Shown in pieces: positions 1 to 27,340 of a stretch of DNA of 64,000 nucleotides. How positions within the stretch are numbered: the first letter of the stretch is position 1; each line of letters opens with the position of its first letter. Both the position numbers and the translations under genes were made by a program. The stretch is from Actinacidiphila sp. DG2A-62 (GTDB taxonomy: Bacteria; Actinomycetota; Actinomycetes; Streptomycetales; Streptomycetaceae): positions 4,946,501 to 5,010,500 of the forward strand of contig NZ_JAYMGI010000002.1 of assembly GCF_035825295.1 (NCBI RefSeq), given 5' to 3'. The notes beneath the pieces were generated by a model. It did no database searches, had not been told where the DNA came from, and saw only the letters and a program-made list of their open reading frames with translations.

Positions 1-55
1 CATTGTGGTAGACCTTCACCGCGCACAAGGCGCCAGAAACCGTCAGGAGGTCATC

Positions 56-343
56 GTGAAGGCACTAAAAGCAGCGCGTGAAGTGCGCGGACTGACAGGC
101 GAAGAACTCCTCGGCCTGCCGGCGGTCATCGACCTCGACACCGCGAACCGTGCATTGATGATCGGCCGATCTACCGGGTACGGGCTCGCCAGGCAAGGCG
201 ACTACCCGGTCAGGGTGCTCCGCCTGGGAAACGCCTACCGGGTCGTGACGGCTGACCTGCTGAAGTTGCTCGGGCTAGAGCGTCAGCCGGCGGTCGCCAG
301 CCGAACTGACGACGTCGGGAGCGAGCACGGCCTGTGTGCCTGA
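56..343 (+). CDS. small excisionase-like HTH DNA-binding protein
   Basis: Encodes 95 residues. The GTG at 56 is chosen because AGGAGG lies at 45-50, five bases upstream; an upstream ATG-like opening near 5 has no such site. The C-terminal half contains a run reading STGYGLARQGDYPVRVLRLG followed by a YRVV strand and a short helix. This layout is typical of the winged-helix/MerR-like DNA-binding proteins that act as excisionases or small regulators in actinobacterial integrative elements. No integrase is visible beside it in this window, so the excisionase role is inferred from the fold pattern only. The start of the window cuts off its upstream neighbour. Confidence 0.65.
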   Translation: MKALKAAREVRGLTGEELLGLPAVIDLDTANRALMIGRSTGYGLARQGDYPVRVLRLGNAYRVVTADLLKLLGLERQPAVASRTDDVGSEHGLCA

Positions 344-479
344 CGGAGGAGAACGTCGCCGATCGCCACAGGGGGGAGCCGGTAGGGTGGACGGCGAGAT
401 CACTGTCCGACACAGAAGGCTGCGCGCTGTGACCGCTGCTGCTGGTGTGGCCCCCGCTGCGGATACTTCGGACTTCTAG

Positions 480-770
480 TCACCAGGCCATTCCGCTGAT
501 CTCGTCCACGATGCGGTAGGGGGTGACCCTGTCGTCGAGCTTGCGGACGTCGTTCCGGAGGCTCTCGGTCAGCAGGTAGCCCGCTTCGCAGAAGCGGTCG
601 GTCCGGGCGCTGGCCCCGTTCGCGCAGGTGTCGCCGCAGCCGTCGCCGGTCGAGCACTGGAGCTTGCCGAACGGGTGCGCGGCGAGCACGACCTTCACGT
701 CCAGCGGCGCGAAGTCCTCGTCGTCCAGGTCGGTGAACCCGGGTGCCGTGGTCAGGGTGGTGCCGGTCAT
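480..770 (-). CDS. FxLD-type lanthipeptide precursor B, chimeric C-terminus
   Basis: Encodes 96 residues. The ATG at 770 is preceded by GGAAGG. The N-terminal half looks like a RiPP leader (DEDFAPLDVKVV, close to the FxLD leader motif), and is followed by a Ser/Thr/Cys-rich core, CSTGDGCGDTCANG, closely resembling the core of precursor A at 9973-10158. The frame does not stop after the core. It continues for about 40 residues (RTDRFCEAGYLL, VRKLDDRVTPY) that match part of the unrelated protein at 13361-13732. The natural precursor probably ended shortly after the core, and recombination fused it to a gene fragment. It is the last gene of the minus-strand cluster, 50 bp after methyltransferase 1. 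Whether the fused product can still be processed is unknown. Confidence 0.75.
   Translation of the reverse strand: MTGTTLTTAPGFTDLDDEDFAPLDVKVVLAAHPFGKLQCSTGDGCGDTCANGASARTDRFCEAGYLLTESLRNDVRKLDDRVTPYRIVDEISGMAW
497..606. repeat. imperfect direct repeat, copy 1 (cluster flank)
   Basis: About 110 bp that align with 13585-13697 in the same orientation, differing by roughly a dozen substitutions and one 3-bp indel; stretches such as GGGGGTGACCCTGTCGTCGA are identical. Both copies encode the same protein segment. Here it forms the unexpected tail of precursor B. The repeats bracket about 13 kb containing the whole lanthipeptide cluster. Confidence 0.85.
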
Positions 771-820
771 GGTGATGTCCTTCCGTCGGGTCGAGGCAGT
801 ACGGGAGTTCCGGCCTGCGA

Positions 821-2051
821 TTACTGCTGTGCGGTCGGCCAGGACAGGGAGATCCGGGTGTGGGTCTTGTCGATGATCCGGTCGCCGGGGATCTGGTCGT
901 CGGGGGTGCCGGCGGGGTGGACGCGGATGATCGGGCTGGGGCCGCCGCGGTGGGTGTCGGCCCAGTCGTGGAGGTGGCCGGTGAGGATCTGGGCGAAGGC
1001 GGCGGCGTCGGGGCCGAGGGCGTGGACGCCGTATTCGACGTGCTGGTTGTCCTGCGTGCGGCGGGTGGTGAGGTAGGCGAAGGTGGTGCCGGTGTCGTTC
1101 ACAGCGGCCAGGGAGAAGCTCTTGTTGGCCGGGGCGACGATGCCGGTGTCCAGGTCGGGGTCGACGGCCATGGTGCAGAAGCCGGGCAGGGCGATGGCCA
1201 GGTGCATCTGGAGGGTGTCCAGCAGCTCGCTGAGGCCGACGGTCACGCCGGTCCACGTCTCGTGGCGGGGGTGGGTGACGGCGTTGTCGAGCAGGCGGGG
1301 ATCGGTGGGCAGGCCGTCGTCGAAGCGCAGTCCGATCTCCGGGGTGCCGTTGACCAGGAGCAGGTCCTCGTGGTGTGCGGTGGAGCCCTGCATGGGAACG
1401 AAAGCAGATCTTCGCCGATTCGCTCTCCAGGTGGTCGCCGGCGCGGGTGAAGGCGATGGAGCGGGTCAGGCCGCGCATCCGCAGCGGCACGACGATGCGG
1501 CCGGCGGGGGTGAGCTGGTCGGTCCAGGCGGGCGGGATGTCCCAGGCGCCGGCGGTCACCATGACCACGTCGACCGTGCCCAGGCCGGGGATCGCCTCGG
1601 CGGCGTCGGCGGTGACGACGGTGACCCGGCCGTACCCGTGCTCGTCCAGCAGGCGGCGGGCGCGGTCGGTGACGGCGGGGTCGATGTCCACGGTGGTGAC
1701 CTGGCCCTGGGGGCCGGTGAGTTCGGCGAGGTAGGCGGCGTTGAGGCCGCCCGAGCCGATCTCCAGCACCCGCATCCCGGGGCAGAGGCGGGCCTGCTCC
1801 AGCATCAGGGCCTGGATCTGCGGCGCGGACACCGAGCTGAGCTGCACACCGTGCTCGTCGGTCTTGGTGATCACCGCCGCGAACGGGTTGTACGCCTCCT
1901 GCACGCTCGCCTCGGGCGCGAACTCATGGCGCGGAACCCTACGCATCACCGCTTCGACCTCGCGGGAGGTGATCCAGCCCCGGTCGCGCAGGGTGTCGAC
2001 GGCGTTGTTGCGCAGGCGGGTGGCGTCGTCGGGTTCGACGGTGGTCGTCAT
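821..2051 (-). pseudogene. FxLD-system PCMT-like methyltransferase 1, frameshifted
   Basis: About 410 codons. The ATG at 2051 follows AAAGG. The N-terminal part is a protein-L-isoaspartate methyltransferase (PCMT)-like SAM domain: VPRHEFAPEA near residue 40, SAM motif I VLEIGSGGLNAAY near 100, VTTVDIDP after it. The C-terminal part carries the extra domain seen in FxLD-system methyltransferases. The two parts are in different frames, joined near 1400; comparison with the two paralogues in the cluster suggests loss of two bases (or gain of one). Such enzymes are expected to methylate an Asp carboxylate of the modified precursor. Located between methyltransferase 2 and precursor B. Confidence 0.8.
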
Positions 2052-2235
2052 GAAAGCGGTGCCTTTCGTTGGGCGGTGGTGAGGAGACACGCAGGTCGGC
2101 GGGACCAGCCTGAGTGCCCGGGCTGACGAGGTCGACGAGCGCCCCTACGCGGTCGGGGAGCGGCAGGCAAGCGGGGCGGAATCGGGCGACGAGCGGGAAC
2201 CGCCGGACAGTCCGGCCCTCAGGTCCGGACGCGGG

Positions 2236-4698: not shown

Positions 4699-6742
4699 TC
4701 AGCCCTTGCGCGCCCGGTCGACGACGAGTCGGCTGTAGGGCTTGTCGATGACGAAGCGGGGATCGTCCGCCGCCAGCCGGTCGCGGCAGTCGGCGACGGC
4801 CATCCGGAAGCCCGGTTCGGGGGCGTCGTTGCCGCCGCCGGCGTCCCAGGCGCGGATCTCGCTCACAACATGCTCGGCGAGATCGGCACCTGCCTCGCCG
4901 TGGCCGATCACGCCGATCTCCCAGTAGCGGCCGCGCTCGTCCGCACCCTCACGTACGGTCAGGTACGCCAGCGACCCGCCGTCGAGGGCCGCCATCGAGC
5001 CCCAGCCGAAATGCGGGGTGAACCCGGGGCGCTTCCCCGGCAGGCGGGACAGGCCGTTGGGCAGCACGCAGGCCAGGTACAGGTACAGCCACTCCCACGC
5101 CGAGCCCTGCCGGAACTTCACTCCGGTGTAGATCTTGGTCTGTTGCCGGTCGAGGACGGTGCAGCGCGTCGCGGTCGATGTCCTGTTCGCTGAACGTCTC
5201 CAGGCGGGCGTTGCCCTCTCCGGCCAGCGGCACGACGGTGTACACGTCGTCGCAGACGCCCTTGCGCAGGGGAATGAAGGTGGCCATCTCGCAGGAGACG
5301 GTCTTCCACGTGTCGCCGTCGCGTTCGAAGGCGAACGAGCGGGAGATGCTGCCGCGGACGCGCATCGGAAGGACCAGGCGCCCGCCGGCCGCAAGCTGAT
5401 CGAGGACGTTCACAGGGACGTCGCCGGCGCCGACGGTGAAGATGATCCGGTCATAGGGGGCGTGCTCGGGCAGTCCTTCCGCGCCGTCGGCCACCACTGC
5501 GGTGGCGTTGCCGACGCCGGCGTCGGCGAGGTGCTTGTCCGCGCCCGCGACGAGGTCCTCGTCGACGTCGAGGGTCCACACCTGTCCGCCGGGGGAGACG
5601 ATCTTGCCGAGGAGGGCGGCGTTGTAACCGGTGGCGGCACCGGCTTCGAGGACCTTGTGGCCGGCCGCGGCGCCGAGCTGTTCGAGCTGGGTGGCGACGA
5701 TGGAGGGCGCGGAGATGCAGGAGATCATCTCCCCGTGCTCGTCGTGCTTGATCGCAACCGCGTCCTCCTTGTACGCGGAGTCAAGGTCGGCACCGGGAAG
5801 GAAAGCGTGCCGGTCGGTGGTGCGGAAGGCGTTGATGGCCGCCTGGGTGCGCAGGTGGCCGCTGTCGACGAGGCGCTGGGCGAGGGCTTCGCTCAGCCGG
5901 GTGGTGTCGGTCACGGGTGTCACGGTGGTCTCCGTTCGGGGGAGGCTTGGGTCCTCCCGGTCGGACTTGCGGGCGGACACGTCCGCTCCTTCTCCGGTGG
6001 AGAAGGCGACGTGACGGCCGAGCCACGCGGTGGCCGCCTGCACGTCGGCGGGCACGCCCGCGCGGTTGAACGCGAAGATCGCATGGTGGGCGAGGACGCC
6101 CCGGATTCCGCGTGTGAGTCGGCCGTCAGCGGCGAGCCGGTGCAGGCGGCGGCCGGCGTCCTCGAACGCGGCGACGCGCTCGACCCAACCGGCTTCGGCG
6201 TCGGGGCGCAGGGCGGCGTCGGCGTTCATCAGCCGGCGCATCGCCGAAGCGGCTTGCTCCAGCGGGTGCCCCTTGGGCGCAGTGACGGGAGGCCGGAGGG
6301 CTGCCCATCGGGCGTAGACGTCGCCGGCTTCGAACGGGTCAAGACCGGCGGCGCGGATCATCGCGGACAGCAGCATCACGCCGCGCTCGCGGGCGCCGGG
6401 GGCGCCGGTCTCGGCGAGGGCGGCCGGGCTGTCGGCGCAGAACACGTCGTGCGCGACGTCCATGCCCTCGGGGCCGCCGAAGGCAAGGGTCTCCGGTTCG
6501 TAGATCCCGCCCGTCCAGCCGGTGATCACACGGTCGGCGACGAGCTGGTCCAGCAGGTCGGCGGCGGGCTGCGGGGTACGCAGGCGCACCCCGGCGTCCT
6601 TGCGCAGGAAGTGGAAGCGGCGCCCGGCCAGCGCGGTCGCCAGGGCCCGGGCCGCATCGGTGTGCGAGTCGGGGAAGACCACGGAGGCGTGCCACCAGGA
6701 CCTGTCCCGAGGGAGCGGCAGGTTCTCGTCGTCGAAGCTCAT
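4699..6742 (-). pseudogene. LanB elimination domain fused to FxLD methyltransferase 3, frameshifted
   Basis: About 681 codons from ATG 6742. Residues about 1-270 resemble the thiopeptide-type/SpaB C-terminal domain (SWWHASVVFP, RRFHFLRK, VITGWTGGIYEPE), which catalyses glutamate elimination in split LanB dehydratases. Residues about 275 onward are a PCMT-like methyltransferase (FLPGADLDSAYKEDAVAIKH, SAM motif VLEAGAATGYNAALLGK) with the FxLD-system C-terminal extension. The frame breaks near 5165; the last 150 residues (LDRQQTKIYTGVKF to the end) continue in another frame. The fusion puts dehydration and carboxyl methylation on one polypeptide, partnering the LanB protein at 7846-9881. Confidence 0.8.
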
Positions 6743-9972: not shown

Positions 9973-10158
9973 CTACGAAGTGGTGCAGGCGCTGGGGCAG
10001 GAGCTGCCGCAGGTGTCGCCCGTGCTGCACATCAGGGTCGTTTCGGTCGCCGGCGTGCCCTCGATGAAGGTGATGTCGAGCCCGAACGGGTCGTTGTCGA
10101 CCTTCACGGGGTCCGCCTGAGCGGGAGCGGTCGGCCTCGTGGCCTGGACGGCGGTCAT
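9973..10158 (-). CDS. FxLD-type lanthipeptide precursor A
   Basis: Encodes 61 residues from ATG 10158, preceded by AGGAGG. The leader contains DPFGLDITF, exactly matching the F-x-L-D motif that names this lanthipeptide family. The C-terminal core CSTGDTCGSSCPSACTTS has four Cys and many Ser/Thr, suitable for several lanthionine rings. The Gly-Asp in CSTGDTC is shared with precursor B and is a plausible target of the PCMT-like methyltransferases. It is the first gene of the operon precursor A-LanB-LanC-fusion-helical protein-methyltransferases-precursor B. The 200-bp gap upstream, before the TauD-like gene, is where a promoter would be expected. Confidence 0.9.
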   Translation of the reverse strand: MTAVQATRPTAPAQADPVKVDNDPFGLDITFIEGTPATETTLMCSTGDTCGSSCPSACTTS

Positions 10159-13360: not shown

Positions 13361-13732
13361 TCACCCGCCGATCTCCCAGGTGTGGTTGCCGGGGTGGGCG
13401 GCGAAGAGGCCGCAGGGTTTGCCGATTCCGGGGGAGCAGCTGGTGCAGTCGGGGAGAAGGAAGACGGTGGTGGGCGGGTCCTGGTTCCAGCGGGTCCAGA
13501 TGGCTCCGGAGTCGTGGCCGGGGAGGTGGTCGTAGACGATGGCGAAGTGGTCGACGGTGTCGTCGTGTTCCGCCAGGTGACAGATGATCTCGTCGACGAC
13601 GTGGTAGGGGGTGACCCTGTCGTCGAGCTTGCGGATGTCGTTCCGGAGGTTCTCGGTGAGGAGGAGGTAGCCGGCTTCGCAGAAGCGGTCCGTCCTGGTA
13701 CTGCCGTCGTCGTCGGGGTGTGGTTCGGTCAC
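13361..13732 (-). CDS. hypothetical protein, source of the precursor B tail
   Basis: Encodes 123 residues from GTG 13732. The segment RTDRFCEAGYLLLTENLRND followed by RKLDDRVTPYHVVDE is almost the same as the tail of precursor B. The C-terminal half has a Cys pair (LLPDCTSCSPGIGKPCG) and ends HPGNHTWEIGG. Two CxxC-like positions could bind metal but this is not established. It is not a recognised family. It appears intact, so it is probably the parent copy of the repeat and precursor B the recipient. Confidence 0.65.
   Translation of the reverse strand: MTEPHPDDDGSTRTDRFCEAGYLLLTENLRNDIRKLDDRVTPYHVVDEIICHLAEHDDTVDHFAIVYDHLPGHDSGAIWTRWNQDPPTTVFLLPDCTSCSPGIGKPCGLFAAHPGNHTWEIGG
13585..13697. 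repeat. imperfect direct repeat, copy 2 (cluster flank)
   Basis: Counterpart of 497-606, same orientation, inside the coding sequence of the hypothetical protein at 13361-13732. Identity by eye is roughly 88 percent. Divergence between the copies implies that the duplication is not recent, or that it involved two related but different genes. Confidence 0.85.
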
Positions 13733-13841
13733 GTCCGGGCGGCGCCCTTTCTTGTGTCGGAGAAGACGTTCACTGGTGCGCGCTGGCCGTGCACGGCCTA
13801 CGACGGCCGGTGCGGTCAGTTGTCGTTGTAGGCCGTGGTCG

Positions 13842-14186
13842 TCAGGGCAGACGGCGGTGCCGCCCGGCGGGTGGAGGGAGCGTGTGGCGGGGCGCGCCGA
13901 CTGCTGCGAACCCGGAAGCGGGAGATCGGTCCTTGATCATCTGGGACTCGATGATGTGATCGGCGAGTGCCTGCGCACATGGCGCGCAGGAGAAGACGTC
14001 CGCGGTGACGCCGTGGACGGACGCCGGGCCGAGCCAGACGACTCGGGTGGTCTCGCGGCCGCACCAGAACCAGCAGCGGCCGGTGGCCCAGCGGTTGCCG
14101 TCGTCGAAGTCCGCGATGGGCGGGAGCCGCCAGGGTGCGATGCGGTCGGGCCGGCCGTCCGCGCCGGTGGGTCGGCGGATTGTCAC
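13842..14186 (-). CDS. hypothetical protein coupled to the ATP-binding regulator
   Basis: Encodes 114 residues. GTG 14186 overlaps the stop of the upstream ATP-binding gene (GTGA), which fixes the start. The protein has a Cys/Trp-rich middle (RCWFWCGRETTRVVWLG) and a CxxC in FSCAPCAQALADHI. The CxxC pairs suggest a small zinc-binding fold, an inference. No enzyme motif is seen; its role is probably tied to its translational partner. Confidence 0.7.
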   Translation of the reverse strand: MTIRRPTGADGRPDRIAPWRLPPIADFDDGNRWATGRCWFWCGRETTRVVWLGPASVHGVTADVFSCAPCAQALADHIIESQMIKDRSPASGFAAVGAPRHTLPPPAGRHRRLP

Positions 14187-14614
14187 GGACGTTCCGTCGA
14201 CAACTCGGTCCAGACGGTCTTGTCCGGGCCCACAACTTCTGTGCCCCACCGGTCCGCGATCGCGGCCACGATCAACAAGCCCCGCCCTCTCTCGGATTCC
14301 TCGTCGGGTGCGCGGAGCATCTCCGGCAGTGCCCCGCCCTGGTCGGAGACCGAGATGCGGATGCGGCGCTGCGCGAGCAGGGCGATGCTGAGTCGGAAGG
14401 ACTGGCAGCCGGCGTGCTGGATGGCGTTGCCGGCGAGTTCGGAGGCGACGAGCGCGGCGTCCGCGCCGAGTTGGCCGATGCCCCATGCGGTTAACGCATC
14501 CCGGACCAACCTCTTCGCGTAGACCGCGGATTCGAGCTCGCAGGGCCAGGACCCGCTGAAACTGCTGGGTACGTCGGCCGTGCGGGCGTGGGCGCGTGTG
14601 TGAGTGGTGGTCAC
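14183..14614 (-). CDS. ATP-binding protein, RsbW/anti-sigma-like HATPase
   Basis: Encodes 143 residues from GTG 14614, preceded by GGAGGGAC. GHKL ATPase motifs are visible: N box LVASELAGNAIQHAG, G1 box ISVSDQGGALPEM, G2 region GRGLLIVAAIADRWG. Stand-alone proteins of this type in Streptomyces act as anti-sigma or anti-regulator kinases and are often paired with an XRE/DUF397 gene pair, exactly as here (14856-15944, divergent). The next gene overlaps its stop. An operator-rich region lies upstream. Confidence 0.85.
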   Translation of the reverse strand: MTTTHTRAHARTADVPSSFSGSWPCELESAVYAKRLVRDALTAWGIGQLGADAALVASELAGNAIQHAGCQSFRLSIALLAQRRIRISVSDQGGALPEMLRAPDEESERGRGLLIVAAIADRWGTEVVGPDKTVWTELSTERP

Positions 14615-14738
14615 TGGTAGTCCCTCCGGGATCGCTGGAGGCAGCACGACGTGCCGACGGGCAGGCTGGGCCGCACTCCGGACAGAGACTTCGCCAGTAC
14701 GGAGAGTCGGCATCGCTGTCCGAGAGCAACTCTGGCGT

Positions 14739-14820
14739 ATGAGCAACGTTTCTAGCAACTAGAGTGAACAGAAACGTTGCTCATGCGAGGAAGTTGGCAT
14801 ATGCCAGCAACGTTGCTGGC
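14739..14820. promoter_or_regulatory. operator cluster with AGCAACGTT sites between divergent regulators
   Basis: A perfect 15-bp inverted repeat (ATGAGCAACGTTTCT at 14739-14753 and its complement at 14770-14784, 16-nt spacer) is followed by a perfect 18-bp palindrome, GCCAGCAACGTTGCTGGC at 14803-14820. All share the half-site AGCAACGTT; further partial sites (GAGCAAC, AGCAACT) lie at 14724-14760. The cluster lies between the ATP-binding gene and the XRE/DUF397 pair, so it is probably bound by the XRE protein or a relative and controls both directions. Confidence 0.75.
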
Positions 14821-14855
14821 GCTACCCTTCAAGCGATCACGAGAGAGGCGAGACC

Positions 14856-15719
14856 ATGGCAGAAGCACGGCCCAACGTGCACCGCAGGCGGTTCGGCTCG
14901 GCGCTCCGCTCGCTGCGGCTCGCCTCCGGTCTCAGCCTCGAGGAAGCGGCGCAGCGCCTCGGCCTGGCCGGCAAACCCGCGCTCAGCAAGATCGAGACGG
15001 GCAAGCAGCGGGTCTCTGGTCTCGGACTGACGGCGTTCCTGAGCGTCTACGCGGTGGACAGCGAAGAGACCGTCGCCAAGATCAAGGCCATGGCTGCGCT
15101 CGCTTCGTCCAGCAAGCGAACGAACCTGCTCGACGAGTACAAGGAGGCGATCCAGACCGCCGAGTTCGAGGACTACCTGCACCTGGAAGGAATGGCCTCG
15201 AAACACGAGTCGTACCTGCACATGGTCCCGGGGCTCCTCCAGACCAGGGAGTACGCGACCTCCGTCGTGGAACGAAGCCAGGTGTGGGCGTCGCAGCGCG
15301 AGGTGAACCGCTTCGTAGACCTCCGGATCGCACGGCAGGCCGCATGGGCCCGGGAGAATCCCCTCAGTGTCTGGTGCATCCTCGACGAAGCGGCTCTGCG
15401 CCGCGTCGTCGGCGGCCCGGAGGTCATGCGCGGGCAGTTCCAGCGCCTCCTGGACGTGACCGAGGAGCACGCACACATCGTGATCCAGATCCTGCCGTTC
15501 AGTGCCGGAGCACACCCAGGGCTCGACGGTCCGTTCCAGCTCCTGCACTTCCCCGGCGGATCGCCGGTCGCCATGGTCGAGACAAAGACAACGTCCATCT
15601 ACCTGGAGGAAGATGGCATCGTCGACCGTTATCGAACCGCCCTGGACACCCTCCGCGAAGAGGCTCTCGACGTACAGGCGAGCCGACGCCTCATTCGCGA
15701 ACTGATCAAGGACAGCTGA
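14856..15719 (+). CDS. XRE-family regulator with DUF5753-like domain
   Basis: Encodes 287 residues. An N-terminal HTH (LEEAAQRLGLAGKPALSKIE, residues about 30-50) is followed by a long C-terminal domain with YLHMVPGLLQTREYATSVVE and IQILPFSAGAHPGLDGPF, characteristic of the DUF5753 domain of Streptomyces HTH regulators. These genes usually precede a DUF397 gene and act with a RsbW-like kinase. Here the DUF397 start follows its stop codon with no gap. The 18-bp palindrome ends 35 bp before its start, suggesting autoregulation. Confidence 0.9.
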   Translation: MAEARPNVHRRRFGSALRSLRLASGLSLEEAAQRLGLAGKPALSKIETGKQRVSGLGLTAFLSVYAVDSEETVAKIKAMAALASSSKRTNLLDEYKEAIQTAEFEDYLHLEGMASKHESYLHMVPGLLQTREYATSVVERSQVWASQREVNRFVDLRIARQAAWARENPLSVWCILDEAALRRVVGGPEVMRGQFQRLLDVTEEHAHIVIQILPFSAGAHPGLDGPFQLLHFPGGSPVAMVETKTTSIYLEEDGIVDRYRTALDTLREEALDVQASRRLIRELIKDS

Positions 15720-22964: not shown

Positions 22965-23170
22965 TCGAGCGCCGCCCGCGGGCCTGGGAGCAGCGGCTGC
23001 TGCTCTCCGCGCGGGTGCTTCTGCTGCTTCAGCAGCGCGGTGTCGCGGTCGGCGCGAAGGCGCCCGACCCCGAGGAGGAACGGCGGATCGAGGCCGAACT
23101 GGATCGGCCGCCGTTCGACGACAGCCACGACGACTTCGCGGCGGACGACTACAGCATGGGACCGGCGTAA
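22947..23170 (+). other. cas8: displaced C-terminal part of Cas8
   Basis: Plus-strand frame reading QYWAPLIERRPRAWEQRLLL onward, ending DDYSMGPA with TAA overlapping the cas7 ATG (TAATG). It has no start of its own and lies exactly where the Cas8 C-terminus should be, with the usual tight coupling to cas7. Best read as the frameshifted end of Cas8, giving a full length of about 477 residues. Confidence 0.8.
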
Positions 23171-24240
23171 TGAGCTATCTGGCAGGGACGGTCGTACTCG
23201 CGGTCCAGGCGGGCGCGCCCAACAACGGCAAGGGCGAGGACACCACGGCGCGGGTGAAGTACGCGCAGGTGCGCGGACGTAAGCACCCTTACGTCTCCGC
23301 GCAGGCGGTACGCCGCTGGATTCGCGACGGCATGGTCGAACTCGGTGACAAAGCCTCCCCGGTGACGCGGGTGGGCAAGGCGCAGGGCAAGGCGCAGAAG
23401 GCCAACACCGAGGCGAACCCCGTCAAGTTCGCCGACGACGACCTGTTCGGCTACATGAAGGCCGGTGCCAAGCGGGACGACTCGGCGACGACGCTGCGCG
23501 ACAGCCCGTTCATGCTCGGCACACTGATGTCCGTCGAACCGGTCTACCCCGCGGTGGACTTCGGAGTGATGTCGCGCGGGGTGACCGAACCGGTGCTGCA
23601 CGGGCACGAGTTCTACACCGCCGACCTCGCGGCCCCGTTCCTTCTGGACCTGCCGCGCGTGGGCACCTTCACCCTTCCGAACGCCGACGGGGTGGGTCGC
23701 CCCAATTACCTCACCGCGGAGCAGGCGCTCCAGGTGGCGGAGGCGACCGCCCACGGCGCGAGCACCCTGCACTTCCGCGATCAGCCCGCTGTACGGCTCC
23801 CGCTGGAGGAGCGCGCCCGGCGCGCCGCGCTGCTGCTGGAGGCCATGGCGAATCTCAGCGGAGGGGCCAAGCAGGCGCTCCACTACGGGGACCGGGTGCC
23901 GTCGCTGATCGTCCTGGTCCCGTTCAAGGGCGGCATCAACCCCCTGGCCAACGTCATCGACAGCGACATGGTCACCGGGGTGCGAGTCCGCGGCGACGTG
24001 CTGCGCCAGGAACTGGAGGCGTGGCAGGGGGAGTGGGAGGCGCCGGTGCGCGTCGGATGGCGTCCCGGCTTCCGTGACCAGGCCCGCGAGGACTTCGAGA
24101 AGCAGTGCAAGGACCAGATCGACGACGGAACCGTCGTGATCGGTCACCCTCGGACCGTGCTGCTCGACCTGGCCAGGGAACTGCGCGACGGCAAGCGCAA
24201 CGCCTGGTTCGACGACCCGGTCCGGCAGGAGGTGCGGTGA
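23170..24240 (+). CDS. cas7: Cas7 (Cst2/DevR-type Cascade backbone)
   Basis: Encodes 356 residues from ATG 23170. Cas7 forms the helical backbone that covers the crRNA spacer. Family features: N-terminal LAGTVVLAVQAGAPNNGKGE, the RKHPYVSAQAVRRWIRDG segment near residue 35, YPAVDFGVMSRG near 125 and LSGGAKQALHYGDRVPSLIV near 225, all characteristic of Cst2/DevR proteins. The stop overlaps the cas5 start (GTGA). Confidence 0.93.
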   Translation: MSYLAGTVVLAVQAGAPNNGKGEDTTARVKYAQVRGRKHPYVSAQAVRRWIRDGMVELGDKASPVTRVGKAQGKAQKANTEANPVKFADDDLFGYMKAGAKRDDSATTLRDSPFMLGTLMSVEPVYPAVDFGVMSRGVTEPVLHGHEFYTADLAAPFLLDLPRVGTFTLPNADGVGRPNYLTAEQALQVAEATAHGASTLHFRDQPAVRLPLEERARRAALLLEAMANLSGGAKQALHYGDRVPSLIVLVPFKGGINPLANVIDSDMVTGVRVRGDVLRQELEAWQGEWEAPVRVGWRPGFRDQAREDFEKQCKDQIDDGTVVIGHPRTVLLDLARELRDGKRNAWFDDPVRQEVR

Positions 24241-24941
24241 TCCCGCCCCAGCGGACAGCGACCGCGACAGCTGAGCCCGTCCCGGCCTGGCGCGCGGAGT
24301 TCCACGCCCCGGTGGCCTCCTTCCGCGACCCGCTCTTCCCCGGTGTCACCCGCGGGCTCCCCGTCCCGCCGCCGTCGACCGTACGCGGCATGCTGGCGGC
24401 GGCCACCGGGGAATCGCTGGAGCCGGTGGTCCTGGGGATGGCCGCGTGGTCCGAGGGCAGCGGCGTGGACACCGAGACGTACCACCCCATCGCGGCGGAC
24501 GGCACCAACCCGTCCTCCGGCGGCAGGGTGCGGGCCGTCAAGGGCGGGATGACGATCAGGGACCGCAGTTTCCTCGTCGACGTCCACCTCACCGTGTGGC
24601 TCCCGGAGCCTGACGGGGAACGGATCGCCCAGGCGCTCCGCCGCCCGCGCTGGCCGCTGCGCCTGGGCCGCTCGCAGGACGTCGTGCACCTCGAAGCCCT
24701 GCGCCGGGTGGAACTGCAGCCGGCCGCGACCGCTGTCGTGGACCACGCCCTGGCACCGCGGGACGGGCACGCGGTGGGTGCGGCGTTCGACTACCGCATG
24801 GCGACCCAGGTATCCCTCGACCGGCTGACGACCGCCTGGTCGGATTACCTGTGGTGCGACGAGCCCACTGGAGAGCAGCCGGTGTCCGGAGCCCTGCGCG
24901 ACCCGGACGGAGGCCGGGCCGTATGGCTGCTGGCCCCCTGA
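24237..24941 (+). CDS. cas5: Cas5 (Cas5t-type)
   Basis: Encodes 234 residues from GTG 24237. The N-terminal FHAPVASFRDPLFPGVTRG and PPPSTVRGMLAAATGES are the conserved RAMP start of Cas5 proteins, and WPLRLGRSQDVVHLEAL near 140 is the later conserved block. Cas5 caps the 5' end of the crRNA in Cascade. It overlaps cas3 by 19 bp. Confidence 0.92.
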   Translation: MIPPQRTATATAEPVPAWRAEFHAPVASFRDPLFPGVTRGLPVPPPSTVRGMLAAATGESLEPVVLGMAAWSEGSGVDTETYHPIAADGTNPSSGGRVRAVKGGMTIRDRSFLVDVHLTVWLPEPDGERIAQALRRPRWPLRLGRSQDVVHLEALRRVELQPAATAVVDHALAPRDGHAVGAAFDYRMATQVSLDRLTTAWSDYLWCDEPTGEQPVSGALRDPDGGRAVWLLAP

Positions 24942-27340
24942 CCGCGGGCGGACGGCAGCGCAGCCTTGCTGATCTGCGCGCCAAGTCGCGTCCCAGGCAC
25001 GACCCGGAACGGCTGACCACTCACCTGCGCGCGGTGCACGACGCCGTGGCGCAGATCGAAGCCCGCATCGCCGCCGCCGGGCCCATCGCGACGCGGTCCG
25101 GGTTCTGGACGGCCGTCCGCCGCGCGGCGCTCCTGCACGACGCCGGGAAAATCGCTGAAGGCTTCCAGCGGCAGGTCGAGCCCGGTGGGGCGGTGTGGGG
25201 CGAGCGGCACGAGGTCCTCTCGCTCGCCTACCTCGACCTGCTCGCACCGGCTGCGGGGTGGAGCAGCGCCGAGCGGCTGCTGATCGGCACGCTGGTCGCC
25301 TCCCACCACCGGGCGCTGCACGCCGCGTCGTCGCTCGGTGGCGGGAAGCCGGCGCTGTCCCGCGTGTACAACGAACGGACCAAGTGGGAGGAGGCGTTCT
25401 CCGCCACATCCGGGCCGGACGGCACCGTGGTTCAGGTACCGCGCTACCTGCACCAGCAGTTCCTCGCCTGGCTCAGCGGCTTCCTCGCCGTCGACCCGCC
25501 GCCGGCCGGCCGTGAGGACCCGCCGCTGGCACACCGCGCCAGCTGGGAACTCACCGATGTGCTCGACGCCTGGCGCGACCCGGTGAAACCCCACACGGGG
25601 CTGCTGGCCGTGCTCGCCCAAGGCGCGCTCACCCTGGCCGACCACGCCGGTTCCGCCCACGAGCGGCTCCAGACCCACATGCCGCTGCTGCCCGACTACC
25701 TCGAGCGGCTGCCGTACCCCGCCCATCAGCACCAACGGGAGGCCGGGACGACCCTGGGCCACCTCGTCCTCGTCGCCCCGACCGGCAGCGGCAAGACCGA
25801 AGCCGGCCTCGCCTGGGCCGCCCGCCAGGCCGACACCATGCCCGGACAGCCCCGCGTCGTGTGGACCCTGCCGTACCGCGCGTCGCTCAACGCGATCCGC
25901 CGCCGTTTCGAGAAGGGACTCGCCCCCGCTCCCGGCGAGCGCACCGCGGACATCGGCCTCCTGCACGGAGCCGTCGCGCGCACGCTCCTCTACGAAGCGG
26001 TCGAGGAGGACTGCGGGCCGGACACCGCCACGCGCCCGGTCCCCGACAAGGGCGACGCCGGCAAGGCACGGGCGCGGGCCAACGCCATGCGGCTGTTCGC
26101 CCAGCGGGTGCGCGTCGCGACCCCGTACCAGCTGCTCAGCGCCGCCATCGCCGGGCCTTCGCACTCCTCCGTCCTGCTGGAGCAGGCCAACTGCCTGTTC
26201 GTGATGGACGAACTGCATGCCTACGAGCCGGAGATCCTGGGACGGGTGTGCGCCGCGGCCCGGCTGTGGGAGCAACTCGGCAGCCGTTTCGCCGTGCTCT
26301 CCGCGACGCTTGCGCCGCAGCTCCTCGACCTCATCGGCGAGAGCGTCGAGCAACACGTCACCCTCCACAAGGCGCCGCCCGGCACCGCGCCGGTCAGGCA
26401 CCGCCTCGTCCTCGACGAGTGGCCGATCGACGCCCCCGACAGCGTGACCAGGCTCGGGGAGTGGCTCGGCGAGGGGCACAGCGTCCTCGCCGTCGTCAAC
26501 ACCGTCGACACAGCACAGAAGCTGTTCACCACCCTCGCCGACGAAGTCCGCGCGGCGCGGCCCGACGACCCGCAGGCGGCGCTGCTGCTCCACTCCCGCT
26601 TCAAGAACCGCGACCGCGACGCCATCGAGCGCCGGCTGCTGCGCCGGCACCCCGAACGCCGCGAAGGCGAGGCAGAGTCACGCGGCGGGCTCGTCGTGGC
26701 GACCCAGGCCGTCGAGGTCTCCCTGACCCTGGACTTCGACCGGGGCGCGGTGGAGAACGCACCGGTCGAAGCCGTCGCCCAGCGGGCTGGCCGGGTCAAC
26801 CGGCGCGGCCTCCACCCGCACGGCCCGGTCGAGTTCCGCGTGCACCGTGGGTCCGGTTTCCGCCCGTACGAGCAGGGCGCCGTCGAGGCCGCCTGGGAAG
26901 CGCTGAAGGCTCTGGGGGCCGAAGGCGCGGACGGCCTCGGCGAGCAGGACATCGACCGGCTGCTGGCCCTCGCGTACGACACCGAGTGGGGGCAGAAGTG
27001 GCTTGAGCGGGCCCGTGACGCCCGCGACGCCTTCACCGCGGAGTTCCTGACGTTCACCGACCCCTTCCACGACCGTACCGAGCACGCGAAGGCACTCAGC
27101 GAGCGCTTCGACACCGCCGAGGTGCTGCTGCGCGACGACCTCGACGAATACCGCCGGCTCGTCTCCGGCCGGCACGGCGATCCGCTCCTCGCCTCCGGCC
27201 TGCTCATCCCCCTGCGATACGGCCAACTCAACACCTACAACGCCGAACTCGACCGGCGCCTCGGCGTCTTCCTGATCGACGGCGACTACGACCCGGTCCT
27301 GGGCCTGCGCCCGCCGCCCGACCAGGAGACCATCCTGTGA
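24923..27340 (+). CDS. cas3: Cas3 helicase-nuclease
   Basis: Encodes 805 residues from ATG 24923, overlapping the end of cas5. Domains: HD nuclease at the N-terminus (LLHDAGKIAEGF with His72-Asp73, then VASHHRALH near 120), then a superfamily 2 helicase with Walker A APTGSGKTEAGL near 280, DExH box MDELHAYEP near 425, SATLAP shortly after, and the C-terminal QRAGRVNRRG motif near 625. Cas3 is recruited by Cascade to unwind and degrade target DNA. It is intact and of normal length, with all motifs present. Confidence 0.96.
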   Translation: MAAGPLTAGGRQRSLADLRAKSRPRHDPERLTTHLRAVHDAVAQIEARIAAAGPIATRSGFWTAVRRAALLHDAGKIAEGFQRQVEPGGAVWGERHEVLSLAYLDLLAPAAGWSSAERLLIGTLVASHHRALHAASSLGGGKPALSRVYNERTKWEEAFSATSGPDGTVVQVPRYLHQQFLAWLSGFLAVDPPPAGREDPPLAHRASWELTDVLDAWRDPVKPHTGLLAVLAQGALTLADHAGSAHERLQTHMPLLPDYLERLPYPAHQHQREAGTTLGHLVLVAPTGSGKTEAGLAWAARQADTMPGQPRVVWTLPYRASLNAIRRRFEKGLAPAPGERTADIGLLHGAVARTLLYEAVEEDCGPDTATRPVPDKGDAGKARARANAMRLFAQRVRVATPYQLLSAAIAGPSHSSVLLEQANCLFVMDELHAYEPEILGRVCAAARLWEQLGSRFAVLSATLAPQLLDLIGESVEQHVTLHKAPPGTAPVRHRLVLDEWPIDAPDSVTRLGEWLGEGHSVLAVVNTVDTAQKLFTTLADEVRAARPDDPQAALLLHSRFKNRDRDAIERRLLRRHPERREGEAESRGGLVVATQAVEVSLTLDFDRGAVENAPVEAVAQRAGRVNRRGLHPHGPVEFRVHRGSGFRPYEQGAVEAAWEALKALGAEGADGLGEQDIDRLLALAYDTEWGQKWLERARDARDAFTAEFLTFTDPFHDRTEHAKALSERFDTAEVLLRDDLDEYRRLVSGRHGDPLLASGLLIPLRYGQLNTYNAELDRRLGVFLIDGDYDPVLGLRPPPDQETIL

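Follow-up and report, generated by a model that had tools for sequence, protein, structure and literature searches.

Results

Near the left edge of the 64,000-nucleotide stretch of DNA that we analysed (the window), ORF 770-480 is a minus-strand reading frame of 96 amino acids, with plus-strand genes on one side and a minus-strand methyltransferase gene on the other. The features needed to follow its composition are as follows.

5 to 343, plus strand: small protein of an integrase/XRE module, at the left edge of the putative island described below; 67-75% identical relatives in several genus mates, and homology of the module
429 to 494, plus strand: what is left of a HIT-domain gene, its start only; 82% identical at the DNA level to the L106 region
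480 to 496, minus strand: final residues (about SGMAW) and stop codon of the ORF, read off the opposite strand of the HIT remnant; homology with L106 and L107 at the DNA level as far as window 491-494
497 to 605, minus strand: the tail, a fragment in the donor's own frame that spans about codons 11-49 of a gene resembling 13732-13361; assigned by the DNA match given below
606 to 770, minus strand: FxLD precursor codons 1-55, leader with FAPLD and core with TGDGC; TIGR04363 match, still resembling its relatives
821 to 2051, minus strand: the FxLD methyltransferase (TIGR04364) cognate to the precursor, interrupted near 1402, where a net 2 bp are missing; from comparison with relatives
9973 to 10137, minus strand: Precursor A, listed for comparison, a distinct FxLD precursor whose end is normal; TIGR04363 at 56.2 bits, full model covered
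13361 to 13732, minus strand: third member of an XRE/HATPase triad and an intact relative of the gene that donated the tail; sequence match and gene neighbourhood

Residues 19-51 of the ORF match the model for FxLD lanthipeptide precursors, TIGR04363, with 43.2 bits over model positions 2-33 of 37, and as the curated cut-off of this model is 30 bits, the ORF is a family member by score. The precursor part is up to 78% identical to its homologues in the genus. Its ribosome-binding site, leader and core are intact, the frame is open across both junctions, and the adjacent gene is the FxLD methyltransferase that the family leads one to expect, though frameshifted. Another unbroken frame, of 536 codons, runs on the minus strand over window 480-2090, from the methyltransferase start past its frameshift and into the precursor and tail; in DNA this rich in GC it probably arose by chance.

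The original prediction had held that the precursor runs past its core into about 40 residues resembling the protein encoded at 13361-13732, with a Cys after the core, and both statements were borne out. Residues 53-91 of the ORF align with residues 10-49 of that protein (33/40 identical, E 8e-22), and at the DNA level 101 of 114 positions (89%) are identical with one 3-nt gap and an E value of 6e-37, so that the likeness is not due to chance; the tail has one Cys, at residue 61. Most of the last 41 residues thus go back to codons 10-49 of a 13732-13361-like gene, and the closing SGMAW or so is foreign to that gene, being the antisense of the truncated HIT-domain gene. Judged from these matches, the segment is a mosaic of three pieces, namely the remnant of the HIT gene, some 109 bp of a 13361-type gene, and the precursor with its methyltransferase.

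When searched against Pfam and NCBIfam, the 13361-13732 protein was assigned to no family. It has about 10 relatives in the source genome and others in 21 further members of the genus, and CHL, YDHLPG and HPG motifs are found in the family. At the five closest paralogous places the gene adjoins an XRE regulator and a HATPase gene; such triads, with an XRE of the DUF5753 type, lie at window 13361-15719 and at C2 5535688, 4250871, 5510552, 4660701 and 7070136. A HATPase gene and a distant relative of the 13361 type are also located just upstream of the FxLD methyltransferase at L048, L049 and L050, and a gene of this kind near an FxLD precursor is therefore usual. Compared to the family, the tail keeps the N-terminal CEA-YLL stretch, but only codons 10-49 are present and the conserved His/Cys part is absent. 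Codon by codon, the tail differs from the 13361 gene by six synonymous and four nonsynonymous changes and by one missing codon. This divergence of about 10%, together with the missing codon, means that the tail was not copied recently from the 13361 gene, and the possibility of a recent duplicate was accordingly discarded. A third partial copy of the tail (71/80 bp) was found in the source genome at C2:796,635, and it has the tail's missing codon and several of its variants. Three copies might suggest that the tail is a small dispersed repeat inserted into the precursor, but we consider this highly unlikely, as there are only three and their ends differ, and as an insertion would leave the precursor end and LanB downstream, where both are absent.

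The junction and tail peptide were found in only 1 of 395 family genomes, the source genome itself. Homologues carrying the same tail, named in the original prediction as grounds for refuting it, were sought in all 395 and seen in none of the others. Plasmid records and viral contigs gave no match, and a search of genome contigs returned only Streptomyces sp. NRRL F-5123, whose precursor ends normally. In that strain (L062:6728-9532) a methyltransferase-precursor pair without LanB, with both genes intact, directly precedes what may be left of an excisionase, and an integrase ORF.

To see where homologous precursors end, as had been proposed, the 8.6-Mb source genome was compared with the 34 genus mates in the search set, 10 of which have a precursor homologue, each match spanning only about the first 58 residues. 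At all nine same-genus loci examined the methyltransferase is followed by the precursor, and at eight of the nine the precursor is followed by LanB and LanC. All nine precursors stop at a conserved xCxxxxxxPA* end (for instance CANGASACNSFVEDPA), with PA at the extreme terminus. The window precursor tracks this layout up to CANGASA and then, from about 606/605, passes into the foreign tail, so that the last conserved Cys and the end motif present in the nine homologues are lost at this point. No cognate LanB or LanC adjoins ORF 770-480, whereas eight of nine relatives have both. Elsewhere in the source genome, which has other FxLD sets at 2.01 and 6.30 Mb, the best LanB matches share only 37-40% identity with the cognate type, and a search for further precursors of the cognate type gave none.

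The second junction is defined from the other side. From position 1 to about 491-494, the window is homologous to a module of integrase, XRE and small-protein genes that other genus members carry, and in G031 and G011 the DNA homology extends as far as the beginning of a HIT-domain gene. This gene is intact in L106, where its protein matches PF01230. The window copy starts at 429 on the plus strand and is cut at about 491-497; the rest of it was found neither in the window nor in the 30 kb that lie beyond. At the second junction, about 491-497 and approximately 110 bp from the first, the tail therefore meets the HIT start in antisense; both junctions, the missing parts and the methyltransferase frameshift are present as such in the assembly.

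Frameshifts were called by tblastn against relatives, with control gene families, after a 3-periodic Markov frame scan was dropped because it confused the strands in GC-rich DNA. Relative to an intact homologue, the two frames of the methyltransferase (2051-821) meet at 1404/1402, where relatives read TGCGGCTTCGTTCC and the window reads TGCTTTCGTTCC. Further breaks relative to homologues were seen in a second methyltransferase (two breaks), in a third methyltransferase domain, in the LanB gene at 9881-7846, and in the XRE gene left of the window. In window 4949-6742, on the minus strand, an FxLD methyltransferase domain with a frameshift near 5264-5145 is fused to a thiopeptide-type elimination domain. 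The controls were the aldehyde dehydrogenase and AMP-binding genes of the source genome, most of which are in a single frame, although a few matches are partial; genes of the cluster are frameshifted more often than the controls. Such a concentration points to local decay, even though any single frameshift may be an error. That the junctions or frameshifts are errors of assembly would fit a completeness of 95.6%, which is lower than for most genus mates, and the several broken genes nearby. We regard this as unlikely, however, because such an error would have had to occur twice, at two separate junctions some 110 bp from each other, and because most of the control genes are intact.

A tRNA-Thr gene was found at C2:4,942,886-4,942,961, and its 3' end is repeated, without a full tRNA, at C2:5,038,345-5,038,378; the copy is of 34 bp or longer, and the shared stretch around it is about 43 bp by eye. 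A tyrosine integrase is encoded just inside the left copy. The region C2:4942886-5038378 is thus a putative island of about 95 kb inserted at tRNA-Thr, with its right end about 28 kb beyond the window (L017, L059). Given the repeat and the integrase, the whole window would lie inside this putative island, with the fusion ORF near its left edge. The putative island also carries two CRISPR-Cas sets, at window 23170-27340 and L105:5418-10678, one with Cas3-like and DevR/Csa2-like proteins and the other, near the right end, with Cas3 and a CT1975-like protein.

Discussion

Based on these comparisons, we propose, with a probability of roughly 0.86, that ORF 770-480 is the broken and most likely dead relic of a lanthipeptide precursor, generated by two deletions. 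The ancestral precursor would have been of class I (FxLD/TxDGC type), in a normal methyltransferase-precursor-LanB-LanC cluster. One deletion would have joined precursor codon 55 to about codon 11 of a regulatory-triad gene on the same strand, removing the last codons of the precursor, LanB and LanC, and another would have run from about codon 49 of the triad gene to the start of the oppositely oriented HIT gene, which belongs to the integrase module at the island's left end. Two simple deletions would suffice because precursor and tail fragment are on the same strand, and an in-frame fusion could be expected by chance in 1 of 3 cases, with no need for selection. We infer the order of these events, the deletion mechanism and the loss of function from the remains in the assembly.

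The original prediction had offered a choice between a broken precursor and a new follower-type extension, and our results give no support to the latter and favor the former, given the lost end and LanB, the private tail and the truncated HIT gene. The tail could in principle be a functional follower gained by fusion, one that would guide or time how another LanB/LanC set modifies the shortened core in trans. The fusion is in frame, FAPLD leader and TGDGC are intact, the tail brings an extra Cys, and the other FxLD sets of the genome might supply enzymes. Even so, we find this very hard to believe, because the tail is in no homologue and in a single family genome, neither the conserved end nor the cognate LanB remains, a frameshift is read in the methyltransferase, and the tail terminus is the antisense of a broken gene. 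It is likewise extremely improbable that the fusion is translated and that its tail is a newly acquired follower through which the FxLD core can be modified in the absence of its own LanB. A functional tail would, on the other hand, show how a follower peptide can originate by fusion in one step.

Two points speak against a decayed relic. The intact ribosome-binding site, leader and core, along with the open frame, make expression possible, and the frameshifts could be assembly errors in light of the completeness figure and the partial matches among control genes. Were the fusion translated, a mature product would still be improbable, since the precursor has neither its cognate LanB nor the last conserved Cys and the methyltransferase carries a frameshift. 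Ordinary gene decay is the most likely account of ORF 770-480, and the locus would be a clear case of a lanthipeptide cluster eroding at the edge of a mobile island. It also calls for caution, because a 96-aa precursor with a new type of follower is what genome mining would report here, whereas comparison with relatives suggests a decayed fusion.

In known systems, class I families I 1-4 have a conserved core Asp (PMC7268733), and in precursors with the TxDGC motif (PMC10787088), among them the so-called lanthimiditides (PMC13001092), the core Asp is converted to aspartimide and then isoaspartate via a PIMT-like enzyme (PMC10787088, PMC13001092, PMC7268733). ORF 770-480 resembles FxLD precursors (TIGR04363) in its FAPLD leader, its TGDGC core and its adjacent PIMT-like methyltransferase, but differs from them in having neither the xCxxxxxxPA* end nor an adjacent LanB/LanC, and in ending in two foreign gene fragments. 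Pamtides and imiditides are made by two-gene clusters of a precursor and a PIMT-like methyltransferase (PMC10787088, PMC13001092). The locus is similar to these in that a precursor sits beside a PIMT-like methyltransferase while the primary modification enzymes are not adjacent; unlike them, it is of the lanthipeptide FxLD type, its methyltransferase reads as frameshifted, and its two-gene state would have come about by loss.
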